A stretch of 64,000 nucleotides of DNA from Streptococcus ruminicola (GTDB lineage Bacteria > Bacillota > Bacilli > Lactobacillales > Streptococcaceae), in assembly GCF_011387195.1 (NCBI RefSeq), contig NZ_CP046919.1, positions 62,001-126,000 on the forward strand, read 5' to 3'. This document shows positions 39,485 to 47,531 of the stretch, piece after piece. Within the stretch, counting starts at the first letter, position 1. Each line of letters opens with the position of its first letter. Under the pieces are notes generated by a model that worked only from the letters and a program-made list of their open reading frames with translations, had not been told where the DNA came from and made no database searches. Made by a program: the position numbers and the translations under genes.

Positions 39485-40222
39485 TCATAAGTTCTCCAAG
39501 AGTTCTTTCACATATAAATCTGGCTGGTTAATCGCATATTGACCGTGAGCCAGACCAGCTTTGATTTCCAAGCGACTGTCTGGTAAAAGATCATGTAAAT
39601 ACCTTGCTGAAGCATGCATCTTTTTAGTTTCTTTTTCTCCCACAATAATGCGAACACGCGCTAACGAATTCTTCAAATTTTTCTTTACTTGATACAAGCT
39701 ACTTGCTTTTGTAAAAGCAATCAAATTTTGCTTAGAAAGTTTCACCGTGTCCTCATAATAGTGTTCAAACAAATCAGCTCGAATGCCAAGGGAGCGAAAC
39801 TGCATCTTTGCAAACCACTTCTTCTTAATCAAAGGAAAACTCATCGAAAATAGCGGAGCGACCAAACCTGCTGTCAATTTATCTGGAATAATGGCAGCAC
39901 TTTCTACAATAGCGTACTGACAAATATCTTTTCGCAAAGCAAGCATTTCTAAAAGAATCTGACCACCTAGCGACAAACCAGCAATCAGAAAAACTGAACC
40001 ACCGTAGGTTTTATCAATATAATCCAGAAGTCGCTTAGCATTATCTTCAATGCTTGTAAAATCAGCATCACTTCCAGCATGTCCATCAAGAATTGGCAAA
40101 ACCACATGATAGTTTTCACACAGCAAATCCATCTGAGCTTGATATTGCCACCACGACAAACCGCCACCGTGAAGTAACACGATAACGTCTTGATTTTCTT
40201 GACCAACTTCAACAACTTTCAT
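39485..40222 (-). CDS. Alpha/beta-fold hydrolase
   Basis: 245 residues. HGGG oxyanion motif near residue 19 (LLHGGGLSWWQYQ), nucleophile elbow AGLSLGGQ, acidic residue region RVRIIVGEKETKK and late His in AGLAHGQYA. The ATG at 40222 follows GGGAGGAGATTGTG. Its first 77 bases and the 134 bases upstream are duplicated at 44763-44968, so an ancestral copy was split by the insertion of the island between. Substrate unknown. Confidence 0.85.
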   Translation of the reverse strand: MKVVEVGQENQDVIVLLHGGGLSWWQYQAQMDLLCENYHVVLPILDGHAGSDADFTSIEDNAKRLLDYIDKTYGGSVFLIAGLSLGGQILLEMLALRKDICQYAIVESAAIIPDKLTAGLVAPLFSMSFPLIKKKWFAKMQFRSLGIRADLFEHYYEDTVKLSKQNLIAFTKASSLYQVKKNLKNSLARVRIIVGEKETKKMHASARYLHDLLPDSRLEIKAGLAHGQYAINQPDLYVKELLENL

Positions 40223-40356
40223 CACAATCTCCTCCCCCAAAATGCTAACAAAAAAGACCAAAAGTCCTAGTAAAATAATAACACAGCACAACTAATCAAG
40301 TACCTGTTATCATATTACCATACTTTTGATTTTATTTGATGGGGGTAATGTTTTTA
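40146..40356. repeat. Island-flanking direct repeat, left copy (211 bp)
   Basis: Covers the 5' end and upstream region of the hydrolase gene. Matches 44763-44968 at roughly 90 percent or more by eye, including the whole untranslated region up to GGTAATGTTTTTA. Confidence 0.9.
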
Positions 40357-40482: not shown

Positions 40483-41661
40483 TCACTTGAGATAGTCTCG
40501 TCTAATATAAATTAAAATAGCTTCTAAAATCAGACAAATTGCTGATAACAAAAAACTGATGGTAATGCCAAAATTCTCGGTAATATAGCTCATTAGTAAC
40601 ACAAATACTGAAAATGATAGTGTTGAAATCACTTCAATAACAGAATAAACATTGACCAAATTATTTTCCTCTACAGTCTCCTGAAGAAATACACTTTCAG
40701 GAACTTCTTTTAGCTGTGACAACATACCAACTAAAGCGGAAAAAAATAAAAACATCTGTGCATTTGGAAATAAAATAATGGCCAACGTCACTATTGCTAT
40801 TGATACAAGAGGAAAAAGAATACTTTTCCATTTAGCAGCTAGGAACTTTTCAGATAATCTGAAAGCAATTAAACCACTGGTTATAATGCCAATAGAGTAT
40901 GCTGTATTTGAATATCCCCAGTAGCTTTCTGTTTTATTTAATAACTCAGTTACAAAAACAAGTATAATGGAAGAAACCCAAATCGTATTTGAGAAAATTT
41001 CAAATAAATTTGCCGAGATAAAAAGTCTTAATCTAGGATCTCTAGCAACTGACTTCCAACCTTTGACTAAAATGTCAAGATTAGTCTCTGACTCTAGCAC
41101 CTCCACCTCAGCATCAGGAAGAAATAACATCATGAAGCTGGAAATTATATACAACAGTAAAATTATAAGAGTGGTAGATAAAAGGCCAATCGTTGCAAAC
41201 AAGAGTCCACCTAATCCCCACCCCACCAATTGAGTAGCTTCACCACTCATTGACAATGCTGAGTTTGCCTTACCCAAATCAGTTGCATAACGTGGGACAA
41301 TAGCATAGGAAACAGGTGCTGCAAAACCATCTAATATGGAAATTACAACAACAAATAGATACATCACCAAGGGCGGTACTGATTTCATGACTATAAACAT
41401 TCCTACCAGTATCAACAATAATATAGTCTTTCCGAATTGAGATAAAGATAGAACCTTATTTAGTGCTAACCGTTTAGTAACTAAAGGAACTAAAATACTA
41501 GCAACAAAAGAGGATATTCCTATTAAAATAGGAACTAATGAAGTGGCAATTACTGATTTTGAAATAATGTATATGTTAGCAATGATAGTTACTCTAAAGA
41601 AAATATCTGCTAAATTTGCAACCAATTGAGAAACTAACAACTTGATAAATGAGTTAGACAT
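40483..41661 (-). CDS. MFS-type permease, MefA-like
   Basis: 392 residues with about 12 hydrophobic segments and the layout of small-molecule exporters related to macrolide efflux proteins (MSNSFIKLLVSQLVANLADIFFR; VPRYATDLGKANSALSMSGEATQLVG). GGTGGGAG lies 9 bases before the ATG. It is last in the minus-strand run of the streptide-like island. Its upstream spacer (41681-41720) is a scrap of a GNAT gene. Export of a drug or peptide is possible; the substrate is unknown. Confidence 0.8.
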   Translation of the reverse strand: MSNSFIKLLVSQLVANLADIFFRVTIIANIYIISKSVIATSLVPILIGISSFVASILVPLVTKRLALNKVLSLSQFGKTILLLILVGMFIVMKSVPPLVMYLFVVVISILDGFAAPVSYAIVPRYATDLGKANSALSMSGEATQLVGWGLGGLLFATIGLLSTTLIILLLYIISSFMMLFLPDAEVEVLESETNLDILVKGWKSVARDPRLRLFISANLFEIFSNTIWVSSIILVFVTELLNKTESYWGYSNTAYSIGIITSGLIAFRLSEKFLAAKWKSILFPLVSIAIVTLAIILFPNAQMFLFFSALVGMLSQLKEVPESVFLQETVEENNLVNVYSVIEVISTLSFSVFVLLMSYITENFGITISFLLSAICLILEAILIYIRRDYLK

Positions 41662-41680
41662 ACATTACTCCCACCTTTTC

Positions 41681-41720
41681 TTTCAAAACTCCCATTGCAC
41701 ATAGTTCAACTGTATCTTTT
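41681..41720 (-). pseudogene. Scrap of the GNAT gene inside the island
   Basis: 40 bases matching 45231-45270 with four differences (TTTCAAAACTCCCATT block). It encodes part of the TVELFVMGVLK stretch. It overlaps the end of the MFS gene at 41719 by two bases. Confidence 0.75.
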
Positions 41721-42810
41721 AAGTTTTTTTCTCTCTGTTTGAAAAAGAAAATAATACCAAGCAAAAAAGACTTACTGTACCAAATATTAAATAATTACTC
41801 CTTATACTAAAATTATCAGCAAAAATACCAGCTAGAAAATCTGCTACCATAAAACTTATTGAAATAAATAAATTATATACCGACCACGATACTGCTCTAT
41901 TTTTTTCTATCGACATATTAAATTTAGAGTAAAAATGGTTATTATAACTGGAATTGAGAATACGCATTAATAGAAAAGTTATAATTTGGATGAATAAATT
42001 GGTTTGAAAAAACATAAAAATAGCTAGTATTGGCAGCATTAAACTTATTTTAAACTTAATTTTTAGATAACTTCCCAAAGCCATAGATATATTAAACATA
42101 AATAGTACGATACCCAACATATCTAATGAAAGTCCCTGTTCATTTAAAAATATACCTGCATAAGAATTGCTAATCATAATTAGAGTCGAGAATGCTACTC
42201 CTAACAATATTAAGTTCCATGGAATATCTTTAACATTATCAATGCTGAATATTTTTTGATCATTATTCAGTGTATTTCTGATTTCAGGTAATCCTATTAA
42301 ACTTAATTGACTTAAAACCACAAATACAATGGAAATAATAATCGGATAACTAAAATTCCTATTCAATAAATATGGAGATATAATTGTAACAATAGCTATA
42401 AAAACATATTTTATTGTATTGAGATATTTCAAAAATGATTTATACACTACTTCATCATCAATTATTTCAAAATTATAGGCATTAAGAACACCTGAAGATA
42501 ATGATTCCGACAATCCAAAAGATATTGCTGAAATATATATTATATTTGATTTTCCAAAGAGTAAACAAGATAGCGCTAAAATTAATAGAAAATTTGATAT
42601 AACCAAAATTTTCTTGTAACCAAACTTACTTGAAATAACGCTTAATGGAATATCAAAAAATGAACCACATAACTCGGTAATAACAGATAAACTAGCTATT
42701 TCTGTGAAAGAGAAACCTAGATGCTTTAAAAGTAACATTGTTACAAAGTAGTACGGTAATCCAGACAGAAATATATTCATCACATATAAATTAAAAATCC
42801 TTTTACTCAT
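41719..42810 (-). CDS. MFS exporter of the streptide-like locus (StrC-like by position)
   Basis: 363 residues, 11-12 hydrophobic segments, Ile/Phe/Ser-rich, a major-facilitator pattern (SKFGYKKILVISNFLLILAL). The ATG at 42810 overlaps the stop of the decayed radical-SAM gene (ATGA), so the two were translationally coupled. In the S. thermophilus streptide operon a transporter follows the maturase in the same order, which supports a role in exporting the cross-linked peptide. That role is inferred from position. Noticeably lower GC than core genes around it. Confidence 0.72.
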   Translation of the reverse strand: MSKRIFNLYVMNIFLSGLPYYFVTMLLLKHLGFSFTEIASLSVITELCGSFFDIPLSVISSKFGYKKILVISNFLLILALSCLLFGKSNIIYISAISFGLSESLSSGVLNAYNFEIIDDEVVYKSFLKYLNTIKYVFIAIVTIISPYLLNRNFSYPIIISIVFVVLSQLSLIGLPEIRNTLNNDQKIFSIDNVKDIPWNLILLGVAFSTLIMISNSYAGIFLNEQGLSLDMLGIVLFMFNISMALGSYLKIKFKISLMLPILAIFMFFQTNLFIQIITFLLMRILNSSYNNHFYSKFNMSIEKNRAVSWSVYNLFISISFMVADFLAGIFADNFSIRSNYLIFGTVSLFCLVLFSFSNREKKT

Positions 42811-43352
42811 AATTTGCAAACTGAGTCTCTAAAATATTCTGGACTCTTCTCCTTAATCAAGTTAACATAGCAGCCGCCTTCGCAAATTTTTACTAAGCAC
42901 TCCGTTATCTTTTGCCTGACGCAAAATTCACTCCCAATCTTTAGCAGGTTTGGAACTTCTATCTTCTCGATTTGCTAAAAAACAAAAACCACATTTTAAA
43001 TCACAATACATACTAGGGTATATTACTAATTCGAGTGGAAAACTCAATACATTATGCTTTTTTAATTTTGCTACATACTCCCTCGCATTTTTTAAAGTCT
43101 CGGCAGGATCTTTCAATGATCCCTCAATATTTTTATCAGAATAGATATCTAATGATAATGCTCGTTTTAATTTTCCTGCTTCTATATCTTTTTTAAAAAA
43201 AGAAACAGCAATTTCAAAACCATGGCTTTGAACTAGATATAGAAAAAAGCCTCAGTCTCATCTAATTCAACTCGATCAAAATTTGTTTTATTTATTAAAA
43301 TTCCACCAAACTTCTCTAGTCTAAATAAAACATCTTCTGAAACCGTTCTCAT
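42807..43352 (-). pseudogene. strB: Radical-SAM KxxxW-peptide maturase (StrB-like), decayed
   Basis: Remains of the enzyme that would join Lys and Trp in the precursor. From the ATG at 43352 it reads MRTVSEDVLFRLEKFGGILI, breaks frame near 43235, then continues FEIAVSFFKKDIEAGKLKRAL and reaches the radical-SAM cluster motif CDLKCGFC (LELVIYPSMYCDLKCGFCF). A TGA follows DWE at 42928, then ILRQAKDNGVLS, then a large deletion removes the barrel. The last part is the SPASM-type tail CEGGCYVNLIKEKSPEYFRD ending at 42807. An intact enzyme is about 430 residues (family knowledge). AAAGG precedes the ATG. It cannot be functional. Confidence 0.85.
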
Positions 43353-43421
43353 TTCGAATGCCTTTCTAAAAAAGCAGAGGAAAATGTAACCTCTACTTAT
43401 CCTATGAGATAAATTACCAGA

Positions 43422-43487
43422 TCACTTCCAACCGTCGCCTTTTGCCATAGAACTAGACTCAAGGACTTTCTCAAGTTCTTTAGACAT
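43422..43487 (-). CDS. strA: Streptide-like precursor peptide, short form
   Basis: 21-residue peptide starting MSKELEKVLESSSM and ending AKGDGWK, directly upstream of the maturase remains and downstream of rgg. The leader matches the streptide precursor of S. thermophilus as I remember it, and KGDGW is the Lys-Trp cross-link motif. In that species the core continues VM and further; here TGA follows the Lys after Trp. AAGGAG lies 8 bases upstream of the ATG. With the maturase dead the peptide would stay unmodified. Confidence 0.85.
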   Translation of the reverse strand: MSKELEKVLESSSMAKGDGWK

Positions 43488-43518
43488 AATTGTAACTCCT
43501 TTCAAATAGGATACTATA

Positions 43519-43547
43519 ATTATATTCTTTTTCATCACTTACAATAA
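43519..43547 (-). promoter_or_regulatory. Promoter of the streptide-like precursor
   Basis: Minus strand: TTATTG (43542-43547), 17-base spacer, TATAAT (43519-43524), about 30 bases before the ATG. Likely Rgg/pheromone-activated by analogy. Confidence 0.5.
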
Positions 43548-43567
43548 AACATTCCCATATCTGCACA

Positions 43568-44431
43568 CTACCCTTTATCTGCTAAAATTTTTTCTAAATG
43601 TCCTTCATAAATCTTTGCTATATGATTGCTTCCAGCTAATTTCATTGCGGCAATACTCTTCCTCATTTCAACAATTGCTTTTCTATCTCCTTCTTTTTTA
43701 TATTGATATAAGTGTTGTACATACTGAAATACTAACCTCTCATAGATTTCCGTCTCAGTGAAAAAACATTGCTTTAGTTGTTTTTCAAAATACAAAGCAT
43801 CAAAAATTTTTCCTCTCTCAACACATGTGATATATCCATTTAATAACATCGATGAAATCATTCGCCTATTCTTTGGTATTTCTTTATAAAAATCTGAACG
43901 CCTACACATTTCTCTAGCCAAAACCATAAAAACATCATGATTTAAGGCATCTAATGTATTTGCAAATATCAATAATTCGTAATATCCCCAGTATTCAACA
44001 CTAAATAAATAATCTGTTAAATAAGATAAATCATCACTAGAATAATAAGGCTCTCCCGATAAATCTTGTAATCGAATTTTTAACAAAATTGTATTTATTT
44101 GATGAAATTTGCTCCGCTTGGAATTTGACTCCATTTGTAAATAGAGTAATTTTTTCATACCTTCAACATCATGATTAGATACAAAACAATTAACCTTTAA
44201 CAAAAGTTCATTTAGTTCATCACGACGGAAGTCATGAACTGCATACATAAATTCATCAATCGGTACATTAACCTCATCTAAAACAGCTATAAACTTTGAA
44301 ATTGTTAAATCAGTCTCACCATTTTCAAAACGTGATAACTGAGATGTTGATATACCAACCTTAGCAACATCTTTTAATCGTAATCCTCTAGATTCTCGAA
44401 ACTTTTTAAAAATTTCTCCAAATTTTTTCAT
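43568..44431 (-). CDS. rgg: Rgg-family transcriptional regulator
   Basis: 287 residues. N-terminal helix-turn-helix of the XRE type (FGEIFKKFRESRGLRLKDVAK, STSQLSRFENGETDLTISKF), then an all-helical TPR-like domain that binds pheromone peptide. Divergent from the short hydrophobic peptide gene 89 bases away, the classical rgg/shp pairing. The ATG at 44431 is chosen because AGAGGTACAAT precedes it; the frame is open 21 codons further. It probably controls the precursor promoter downstream. Low GC. Confidence 0.92.
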   Translation of the reverse strand: MKKFGEIFKKFRESRGLRLKDVAKVGISTSQLSRFENGETDLTISKFIAVLDEVNVPIDEFMYAVHDFRRDELNELLLKVNCFVSNHDVEGMKKLLYLQMESNSKRSKFHQINTILLKIRLQDLSGEPYYSSDDLSYLTDYLFSVEYWGYYELLIFANTLDALNHDVFMVLAREMCRRSDFYKEIPKNRRMISSMLLNGYITCVERGKIFDALYFEKQLKQCFFTETEIYERLVFQYVQHLYQYKKEGDRKAIVEMRKSIAAMKLAGSNHIAKIYEGHLEKILADKG

Positions 44432-44520
44432 ATTGTACCTCTGATATGCATATACAGGAATATTCTTAATTTTCAGTATTTTATCATAAAACATAAAAAA
44501 TTGAAAGCGAGAAAATTTAC

Positions 44521-44592
44521 ATGAAAAACAATAGGTTATTAACTATATTACTTCTAGCCTTTGAGGGAATCATTATCATTGTTATGGGCTAA
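44521..44592 (+). CDS. shp: Short hydrophobic pheromone peptide (SHP)
   Basis: 23-residue peptide: two-basic N-terminus (MKNNRLL), hydrophobic core, then Glu at position 15 and the tail EGIIIIVMG. This is the group of SHPs whose active form starts at Glu; S. thermophilus SHP1358 ends EGIIVIVVG (from memory). Divergent from rgg. Ribosome site weak (GCGAGAAAATTTAC). Mature pheromone probably EGIIIIVMG, secreted, trimmed by Eep and reimported by an oligopeptide transporter (family knowledge). Confidence 0.88.
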   Translation: MKNNRLLTILLLAFEGIIIIVMG

Positions 44593-44722: not shown

Positions 44723-44766
44723 TTTACTTCACTGCTTTATCAGCTCGTACAAGTAGTGATACTGCC
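44723..44766 (-). pseudogene. Scrap of the rlmCD-like 3' end
   Basis: 44 bases corresponding to the last codons of the methyltransferase gene at 46152 (here RADKAVK then stop; there RAAETAK). Joins directly to the hydrolase scrap that follows. Confidence 0.75.
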
Positions 44767-44968
44767 ACCAGGACAAACCGCCACCATGAAGTAACACGAT
44801 AACGTCTTGATTTTCTTGACCAACTTCAACAACTTTCATCACAATCTCCTACCCAAAATGCTAACAAAAAAGACCAAAAGTCCTAGGTAAAATAACAACA
44901 CAACTAATCAAGTGCCTGTTATCATATTACCATACTTTTGGTTTTATTTGATGAGGGTAATGTTTTTA
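44763..44968. repeat. Island-flanking direct repeat, right copy (206 bp)
   Basis: Matches 40146-40356. Contains the first 26 codons or so of the hydrolase (MKVVEVGQENQDVIVLLHGG) from an ATG at 44839 that now read into the rlmCD-like scrap, plus the upstream region. Confidence 0.9.
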
Positions 44969-44999: not shown

Positions 45000-45459
45000 T
45001 TATTTTAAAGACATAAGATAGATTTGACAAGGATTTTGCTCGTCCCACAATGTTGGGAATACCTCAAATCCCTTAAAACCAAGTGAAAGATAGAAACGAT
45101 TTGTGCTATCATAACTATCGTATTTTCCCATTTGAACCGTTTTGACTTGAAGAAAAGTGTAACCTTTTTCGGTAGCAATCTCTTTAGCTTTCAAAACAAG
45201 AGTTTTTCCAACACCCTGTCGGTGATATTTTTTCAAAACTCCCATTACAAATAGCTCAACTGTATCTCTTCCAGTTTCTCAAATAAACAAAACTAACTGG
45301 GTGTTTTTTATCATAAGCAGCTATAAATGGGCACTTTGCACTTTCTTTGATGTAGTTCTCACGCGCTTCAGAAATCCCAAACCATTCAGGCAAGGCTTCT
45401 AAAATAAGACGTGTTATATCTTGTTTCTCAGTATAATCAATTATTTCTTTGAGTTTCAT
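45000..45459 (-). pseudogene. GNAT acetyltransferase, frameshifted
   Basis: From the ATG at 45459 (MKLKEIIDYTEKQDITRLILEALPEWFGI) the frame stops at 45256 after YLRNWKRYS. The downstream frame continues as ETGRDTVELFVMGVLKKYHRQGVGKTLVLKAKE, the acetyl-CoA motif, and ends YLMSLK at 45000. A one-base loss near 45277 accounts for it. Intact length would be about 150 residues. It is the source of the scrap at 41681-41720. Confidence 0.8.

Positions 45460-46151: not shown

Positions 46152-47531
<1,380 letters not shown>

Follow-up and report, generated by a model that had tools for sequence, protein, structure and literature searches.

A probable maturase-dead, mosaic derivative of the streptide locus with two intact exporter genes in Streptococcus ruminicola

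Introduction

The streptide locus of Streptococcus thermophilus LMD-9 is described, in the parts of PMC7564271 and PMC3679016 consulted, as the gene series shp1358, rgg1358, strA, strB and strC, with a KGDGW precursor, a StrC of 363 aa and an SHP that contains an EGII core. In LMD-9, StrB has 439 aa and the precursor 30 aa. A second described system is the SHP/Rgg gp_sali_7 ryptide operon of S. thermophilus, in which an SHP/Rgg pair stands before an exporter without a maturase; according to the available part of PMC12445099, the operon encodes the transporter only in 264 of 265 strains, and no second cassette is described there. This ryptide operon is one exporter-only RaS-RiPP case in print. 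Among the titles and abstract openings listed in a literature search that covers few subscription journals, none describes streptide from S. equinus, to which the genome belongs or is very close, or streptide loci reduced to the exporter. The window analysed here is a stretch of 64,000 nt from the chromosome of Streptococcus ruminicola (contig NZ_CP046919.1, positions 62,001 to 126,000), and all coordinates given below are positions in it.

Locus organization

Positions 42807-44592 of the window hold a streptide (KxxxW RaS-RiPP) locus composed of shp, rgg, a KGDGW precursor gene, a dead strB and, directly downstream, an intact StrC-type exporter gene. Gene order, as an earlier note on this DNA had stated, and also orientation are the same as in LMD-9; the exporter that it called intact is indeed open, strC (41719-42810, minus strand) encoding 363 aa with a match to MFS_1 of 70.2 bits. 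The SHP shares the EGII core of the LMD-9 peptide. Unlike LMD-9, the window has a 21-aa precursor with one KGDGW, a dead strB, an SHP ending in IIIIVMG, and a ryptide-type exporter after strC, and it differs from gp_sali_7 in that its cassette is of the streptide and not the ryptide type. The second exporter gene, mfs392 (40483-41661, minus strand, 392 aa), is also intact and matches the 'ryptide export MFS' model NF041056 at 694.2 bits (cut-off 575). The name of this family is a weak guide, since only 1 of the 39 genomes with NF041056 matches had an RRR maturase beside the match. The nucleotide sequence of mfs392 is 97.7% identical to that of the exporter of the S. cuniculi ryptide (RRR) locus, likewise 392 aa long. 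However, S. cuniculi also carries an RRRY precursor and a 464-aa maturase (NF040899, 965.6 bits), and the window has neither, save for what may be the remaining 3' tail of a ryptide-type maturase gene, located just before mfs392 (41662-41686, minus strand), in which 23 nt are 91.3% identical to the S. cuniculi locus. A fragment resembling a GNAT gene (41678-41720, minus strand), 88% identical to the GNAT gene at 45228-45270, is a junction scar. A direct repeat (families D1 and D2), made up of the 5' part of an alpha/beta hydrolase gene and upstream DNA, has its left copy at 40140-40356 and its right copy, 84-91% identical, at 44757-44968. The whole gene order of the window, mfs392 included, recurs in S. 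mitis SK564 and strain Marseille-Q5986. Both of these, and S. agalactiae ATCC 13813, have an intact strB, whereas it is dead in the window; mfs392, intact in the window, is reduced to 5' and 3' remnants in ATCC 13813.

Precursor and maturase

The precursor gene strA (43422-43487, minus strand) encodes a 21-aa KGDGW peptide that scores 48.5 bits against TIGR04079 (cut-off 35). Its protein sequence is identical in S. agalactiae ATCC 13813 and Marseille-Q5986 (98.5% nucleotide identity to the latter) and differs by one residue in SK564. The precursor is short, as the earlier note had it, but the shortness is not damage, since 21 aa is the normal form in relatives; truncation by a frameshift is ruled out, the relatives carrying the same 21-aa peptide.

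The strB pseudogene (42807-43352, minus strand) matches the StrB profile TIGR04080 only in pieces, at profile positions 1-61, 24-155 and 409-440; positions 156-408 are missing, and the best piece reaches 192.4 bits, where the cut-off is 500. Alignment with intact relatives reveals the three lesions that had been reported for the maturase from the first reading, namely a frameshift within the first 40 codons, a stop in frame at about codon 141, and an internal deletion of 773 nt whose junction carries an 8-nt repeat (42891-42898, minus strand). The profile check proposed at that time thus assigns the precursor to its family and the maturase fragments to the StrB family. The frameshift sits in a homopolymer and by itself could be an assembly error; that the lesions as a set are errors is highly improbable, however, as a separate in-frame stop and a 773-nt deletion that has a repeat at its junction are atypical of errors, and the chromosome is a single 1.96-Mb contig. 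A search of the genome with TIGR04080 (E up to 1) found no second StrB, which rules out another StrB acting in trans. With strB dead and no other StrB in the genome, no cross-linked streptide is expected. As for a RiPP maturase of another kind acting in trans, PF13186 (SPASM) has no match in the genome, a weak test, since the intact maturases of loci L011 and L040 are likewise without a PF13186 match in Pfam.

Regulatory genes and promoters

The shp gene (44521-44592, plus strand), aligned with the shp of relatives, encodes a 23-aa SHP precursor, MKNNRLLTILLLAFEGIIIIVMG, with EGIIIIVMG as the predicted mature peptide. The divergent rgg (43568-44431, minus strand) encodes a predicted SHP-responsive regulator of 287 aa with matches to Rgg_C (PF21259, 210.9 bits) and HTH_3 (38 bits). 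The two have the features of an SHP/Rgg pair: an Rgg with HTH and C-terminal domain, and a short hydrophobic peptide with Glu before an Ile/Val run. The conserved Rgg box of the strA promoter (43552-43564, minus strand; GCAGATATGGGAA) fits the consensus. On the shp side, the Rgg-box-like element (44448-44460, plus strand; GCATATACAGGAA) has 2 differences from the consensus GCATATATGGGAA; the -10-like element (44485-44494, plus strand) reads CATAAAACAT, where 20 of 21 other aligned loci read CATA(A/C/T)AAT; and the SD deviates from the consensus as well. The Rgg box and -10 of shp are nearly constant in the other loci, and the description of the SHP/Rgg pair as intact therefore holds for the two reading frames only. 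With its promoter altered in this way, shp self-induction may be weak, while neither rgg nor the strA promoter looks impaired. The genome also has Eep-like and EcsB-family genes, the latter presumably PptB-like. Of the earlier claim that the circuit still works, what stands is rgg, the strA promoter and these genes; the shp promoter, off the near-constant positions, qualifies it and counts against the circuit being healthy.

Among 33 aligned sequences, the window Rgg departs most often, 7 times, from columns that are invariant in the others. A sequence in the protein collection, P0040, differs from it at 4 of 287 residues, all elsewhere than these columns, and has all seven of the deviating residues; P0100 and P0101 have five. 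Being common to these proteins, the seven residues mark a lineage and not decay, and decay of Rgg on the ground of private residues is ruled out. An intact rgg and the existence of so similar an Rgg are consistent with a circuit kept for genes elsewhere in the genome, as had been suggested. This is improbable, however: the exact pattern GCAKATAYRGGAA, which diverged boxes escape, has only two matches in 2.05 Mb, the shp and strA promoters of the streptide locus itself (the reversed control pattern has 1), so that other targets are without support.

Mosaic origin

The shp region is at most 74.5% identical to any compared locus, and the best compared relatives of rgg stand at about 85% nucleotide identity. 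Against Marseille-Q5986, identity is 98.7% in the rgg-strA spacer, 95.6% in the strB remnant and 94.8% in strC. Judged by these identities the locus is a mosaic, with a native shp/rgg, a strA-strB-strC cassette nearest to that of a mitis-like strain, and an exporter like that of S. cuniculi. The cassette sits behind the native shp/rgg and ahead of the ryptide-type exporter. Neither the mosaic origin nor the second exporter figured in the earlier note. A search for an empty site found the right flank matched only by pieces of <100 nt in 58 other genomes, and no match suggesting a plasmid origin was obtained in 72,556 plasmid records, from which records of the same genome may have been excluded. 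The locus shows a possible exchange of RaS-RiPP cassettes behind a shared SHP/Rgg module. It is probably a maturase-dead, non-producing, still inducible mosaic derivative of the streptide locus.

Exporters and maturases in Streptococcus

A strC gene is present in 16 of 284 Streptococcus genomes, always free of inner stops (16/16), and strB in 12, all among these 16. Seven of the 16 have strC without an intact strB, and strB without strC occurs in 0 of 12 (P 0.016; 6:0 and P 0.03 with G096 and G132 as one event; 5:0 and P 0.06 for close StrC alone). Besides the window, the seven are S. mitis SK642, with frameshifts in strB; G275, with an IS3-family transposase inside strB; S. loxodontisalivarius, in which strA and strB are gone and strC follows immediately after the Rgg-box promoter; S. 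merionis, with remnants of strA and strB; and G096 and G132, in which a StrC relative of 48-49% identity comes immediately after rgg. Nine further loci, with another cassette, have one maturase-deletion junction in common, and the adjoining ABC exporter is open in all of them. Its 60 synonymous changes stand beside 30 nonsynonymous ones, against an expectation of about 2.8 nonsynonymous for each synonymous change, and purifying selection acts on it. The exporter-only state of RaS-RiPP loci is thus recurrent, which suggests that exporters often outlive their maturases.

In the window, SHP, whether made by the cell itself or, as an EGIIIIVVG-type peptide, by a neighbour, would still turn on the strA promoter through Rgg. 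Induction would then yield the exporters and a StrA peptide without modification, but not the Lys-Trp cross-linked streptide. That this unmodified 21-aa peptide is itself exported and used is quite improbable: strA is intact and its product conserved as described above, but strA arrived as part of the cassette and has too little length for constraint to be seen, and strC was kept without an intact strA in S. loxodontisalivarius and S. merionis. Judging from relatives, the exporters would be worth keeping without a maturase, most likely for efflux of, or self-protection from, RaS-RiPPs that neighbours make. Selection for the exporter in this particular locus has somewhat less than an even chance. 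A plain relic, in which the cassette is recent, strB broke, strA, strC and mfs392 are intact for want of time and the shp promoter is fraying, is quite possible as well. It agrees with the off-consensus elements before shp, with the strB remnant still so close to its intact relative, and with the window branch of strC (7 synonymous, 12 nonsynonymous), which is not distinguishable from neutral (P 0.18); the strB remnant (4 synonymous, 5 nonsynonymous) looks no more relaxed than strC. Against it stand zero lesions in strC, mfs392, rgg and strA versus three in strB, and the many maturase-less loci that keep exporters; evidence from the window itself is weak for either view.

Several observations count against selection for the exporter. 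L025, one of the nine deletion carriers, shows no mfs392 ORF, and SK642, whose rgg is also broken, has a strC that looks relaxed (6 synonymous, 17 nonsynonymous). In S. mutans, SHP pretreatment gave no protection against the organism's own RaS-RiPP tryglysin, although the authors, in the part of PMC8092268 consulted, allow that conditions were wrong; and the accessible part of a 2026 review (PMC13361665) gives streptide's function as not characterized, so there is possibly nothing to resist. A wider and rather unlikely reading is that streptococcal RaS-RiPP loci repeatedly turn into quorum-regulated exporter-only loci, through unrelated maturase lesions and with Rgg and exporter selected, whose non-producing carriers sense the SHP of producers and pre-induce efflux; the window would then be a recent two-exporter case, its own shp going silent, that listens more than it speaks. 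If the exporter is selected after maturase loss, it has a role beyond secreting the product, and such loci are natural strB-minus, strC-plus strains for testing that role.

Locus organization

The Streptococcus genome (2.05 Mb, two contigs) contains the window at G000:C1:62001-126000. The small contig includes 20 kb that match plasmid p1_CNU_G6, of S. equinus from rumen fluid, with 100% identity over 82% of its length; the genome is accordingly that of S. equinus or a very close relative. The minus strand carries rgg (43568-44431), strA (43422-43487), the strB remnant (42807-43352), strC (41719-42810) and a second MFS gene, mfs392 (40483-41661), and shp (44521-44592) is divergent from rgg. NCBIfam models identify the precursor as a KxxxW-family member (48.5 bits), place two pieces of StrB in TIGR04080 and class mfs392 as 'ryptide export MFS' (694.2 bits). 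The decayed streptide-like RiPP locus proposed in the earlier note is confirmed as a pseudogenised streptide locus.

Maturase and precursor

Profile search located three StrB pieces in the genome, all at the RiPP locus (profile positions 1-61, 24-155 and 409-440). Alignment to intact relatives revealed that the reading frame shifts somewhere in codons 1-40, that a stop interrupts it in frame near codon 141 and that 773 nt are deleted, an 8-nt repeat marking the junction; the three lesions named in the earlier note were thus all recovered, and its proposed profile check returned the StrB family. StrB activity is not credible, since profile positions 156-408 are gone, despite the radical SAM cysteine motif retained in a 62-aa fragment. 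PF13186 had no match in the genome, a weak test, as two intact maturases (L011, L040) also lack a match. The short StrA is not a product of decay: the same 21-aa peptide occurs in S. agalactiae ATCC 13813 and Marseille-Q5986, whereas the S. thermophilus precursor is given as 30 aa in PMC7564271. In G219 (L079:5041-5184) StrA carries KGDGW twice, a layout resembling that of the S. thermophilus precursor.

Retention of exporters across the genus

Among 284 Streptococcus genomes, G000 included, strB was found in 12 (E ≤ 1e-30; 10 above cut-off) and strC in 16 (E ≤ 1e-40), none of the latter with an inner stop. All 12 strB genomes fall within the 16, of which nine have strB as a single open frame and seven do not: G000, G154 (SK642), G275, G020 (S. 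loxodontisalivarius), G021 (S. merionis), G096 and G132. In G275 (L082:2565-5464), one of the 10 above the strB cut-off, an IS3-family transposase occupies the 5' part of strB and the remainder contains a stop, with strC open. In S. loxodontisalivarius (L031:1004-1134) strA and strB are gone and strC lies directly behind an Rgg-box promoter. The StrC relative of G096 and G132, at 48-49% identity, is possibly another exporter; between the two copies there are 9 synonymous and 11 nonsynonymous differences (P 0.05). Sign tests of strC without intact strB against strB without strC gave 7:0 (P 0.016), 6:0 with G096 and G132 as one event (P 0.03) and 5:0 for close StrC only (P 0.06). The asymmetry may also arise because a maturase without its exporter is harmful.

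For strC the window branch carries 7 synonymous and 12 nonsynonymous changes, and for the strB remnant 4 and 5, counts that demonstrate neither selection nor neutrality. The strC of SK642, with 6 and 17 such changes, seems relaxed. The case for the window exporter being kept rests on the wider pattern. Against a protective role stand two published statements: SHP pretreatment did not protect S. mutans from tryglysin, the authors leaving conditions open (PMC8092268), and the function of streptide is given as not characterized (PMC13361665).

Another RaS-RiPP cassette, which pairs a radical SAM protein of 441 aa with an ABC transporter of 525 aa (assignment tested in L011), occurs at 12 loci of the mitis group, S. 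oralis and relatives. The maturase is intact in L011 and L026 and missing in 10, of which nine share one junction (L010, L012, L014, L015, L017, L019, L021, L024, L025) and L029 has another; the ABC gene is open in all 12. Among the nine it segregates 60 synonymous and 30 nonsynonymous changes against a neutral 2.8 nonsynonymous per synonymous; the contrast may be overstated if intact loci have recombined with these or if older variation is shared. L025 has no mfs392 ORF. A maturase-less junction common to S. hillyeri and S. ovis (L033, L047) comes with two ABC genes, which show 66 and 48, and 25 and 27, synonymous and nonsynonymous changes (both P < 0.001 at a neutral ratio of 2.9).

The ryptide-type exporter is present in 39 of the 284 genomes (38 above cut-off), never with an inner stop, and an RRR maturase was seen beside it in one (S. 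cuniculi), although 14 of the 39 are just 43-61% identical to that of the window and in other surroundings, and contexts L184, L185 and L188 hold < 2.3 kb upstream. Among the 24 at least 89% identical, including the window and three streptide loci, the maturase is likewise adjacent in one.

Mosaic origin

Along the locus, identity to the closest of the fetched relatives changes abruptly: 74.5% for the shp region, about 85% for rgg, 98.7% for the rgg-strA spacer, 98.5% for strA, 95.6% for the strB remnant, 94.8% for strC (Marseille-Q5986) and 97.7% for mfs392, here to the ryptide locus of S. cuniculi, in which the maturase passes NF040899. About 23 nt ahead of mfs392 resemble the end of that maturase gene. 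Behind strC in nine other streptide loci, mfs392 is intact in three (L080, L083, L085), a remnant in three (L028, L079, L081) and without match in three (L082, L084, L086). Two histories would fit this observed jump in identity: a streptide cassette may have taken the place of a ryptide cassette between the resident shp/rgg and mfs392, or strC and mfs392 may be long-standing neighbours, the window's mfs392 having been swapped for a copy from a ryptide locus. The mitis-group site between the MIP-channel gene and dltA (tested in L013) has shp/rgg and mfs392 around streptide or a different cassette, and in some loci mfs392 alone. S. agalactiae ATCC 13813 (L028:11494-11873) retains 5' and 3' pieces of the ryptide-type exporter behind strC.

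Regulation and order of loss

Of 34 fetched relatives, 28 have the box GCATATATGGGAA beside rgg, on its shp side, without any change, five have it with a single mismatch and L039 with two; in a few of the 34 no shp frame follows. The window's shp-side box has two mismatches, and its -10-like element is CATAAAAC, where 20 of 21 aligned relatives have CATA(A/C/T)AAT; its strA box and -10 match consensus. The earlier note's intact shp/rgg pair thus stands for the reading frames, but a circuit that still works is less certain, as these promoter deviations suggest that shp expression may be reduced. Alternatively, the window's Rgg lineage may have co-evolved with its box: the seven unusual residues of this Rgg are common to P0040, an Rgg that differs at four other residues and is given without source, so that its cluster may contain the window's own Rgg. 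No third Rgg box was found in the genome at exact match (a reversed control pattern matched once); Eep-like (TIGR00054) and EcsB-family genes are present. Two Rgg relatives 89-90% identical to the window's (P0100 and P0101, the latter a cluster of 307 sequences) end at 238 aa, which may reflect C-terminal shortening of the allele or the end of a contig.

The shp frame is intact in 17/17 loci with a maturase and 10/15 without (Fisher P 0.015, optimistic since the loci are related; the shortened frame of L033 counted as lost). This tally covers 32 of 41 loci classed by hand, leaving out L031, L035, L042, L043, L044, L046, L048, L049 and L050 (contig ends, distant types, no maturase type defined). 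It fits an order in which the maturase would be lost first, the pheromone next and the exporter last, which would place the window between the first two losses. Exporter-only RaS-RiPP loci have a precedent in ryptide of S. thermophilus, according to PMC12445099; among the literature matches listed, none reports that such loci recur across streptide and other cassettes, that the locus is a mosaic or that its shp promoter is altered.

Flanking repeats

Direct repeats of ~215 nt (hydrolase 5' end; 40140-40356 and 44757-44968, 84-91% identical) flank the whole RiPP locus, and recombination between them could excise it. A 42-nt copy of the rlmD (TIGR00479) 3' end (44725-44766 and 46153-46194) adjoins the right repeat, which suggests that the site has been rearranged several times. 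A GNAT acetyltransferase gene (45000-45459) appears split into two frames (45000-45245, 45256-45459), and a 43-nt fragment resembling it lies between strC and mfs392.
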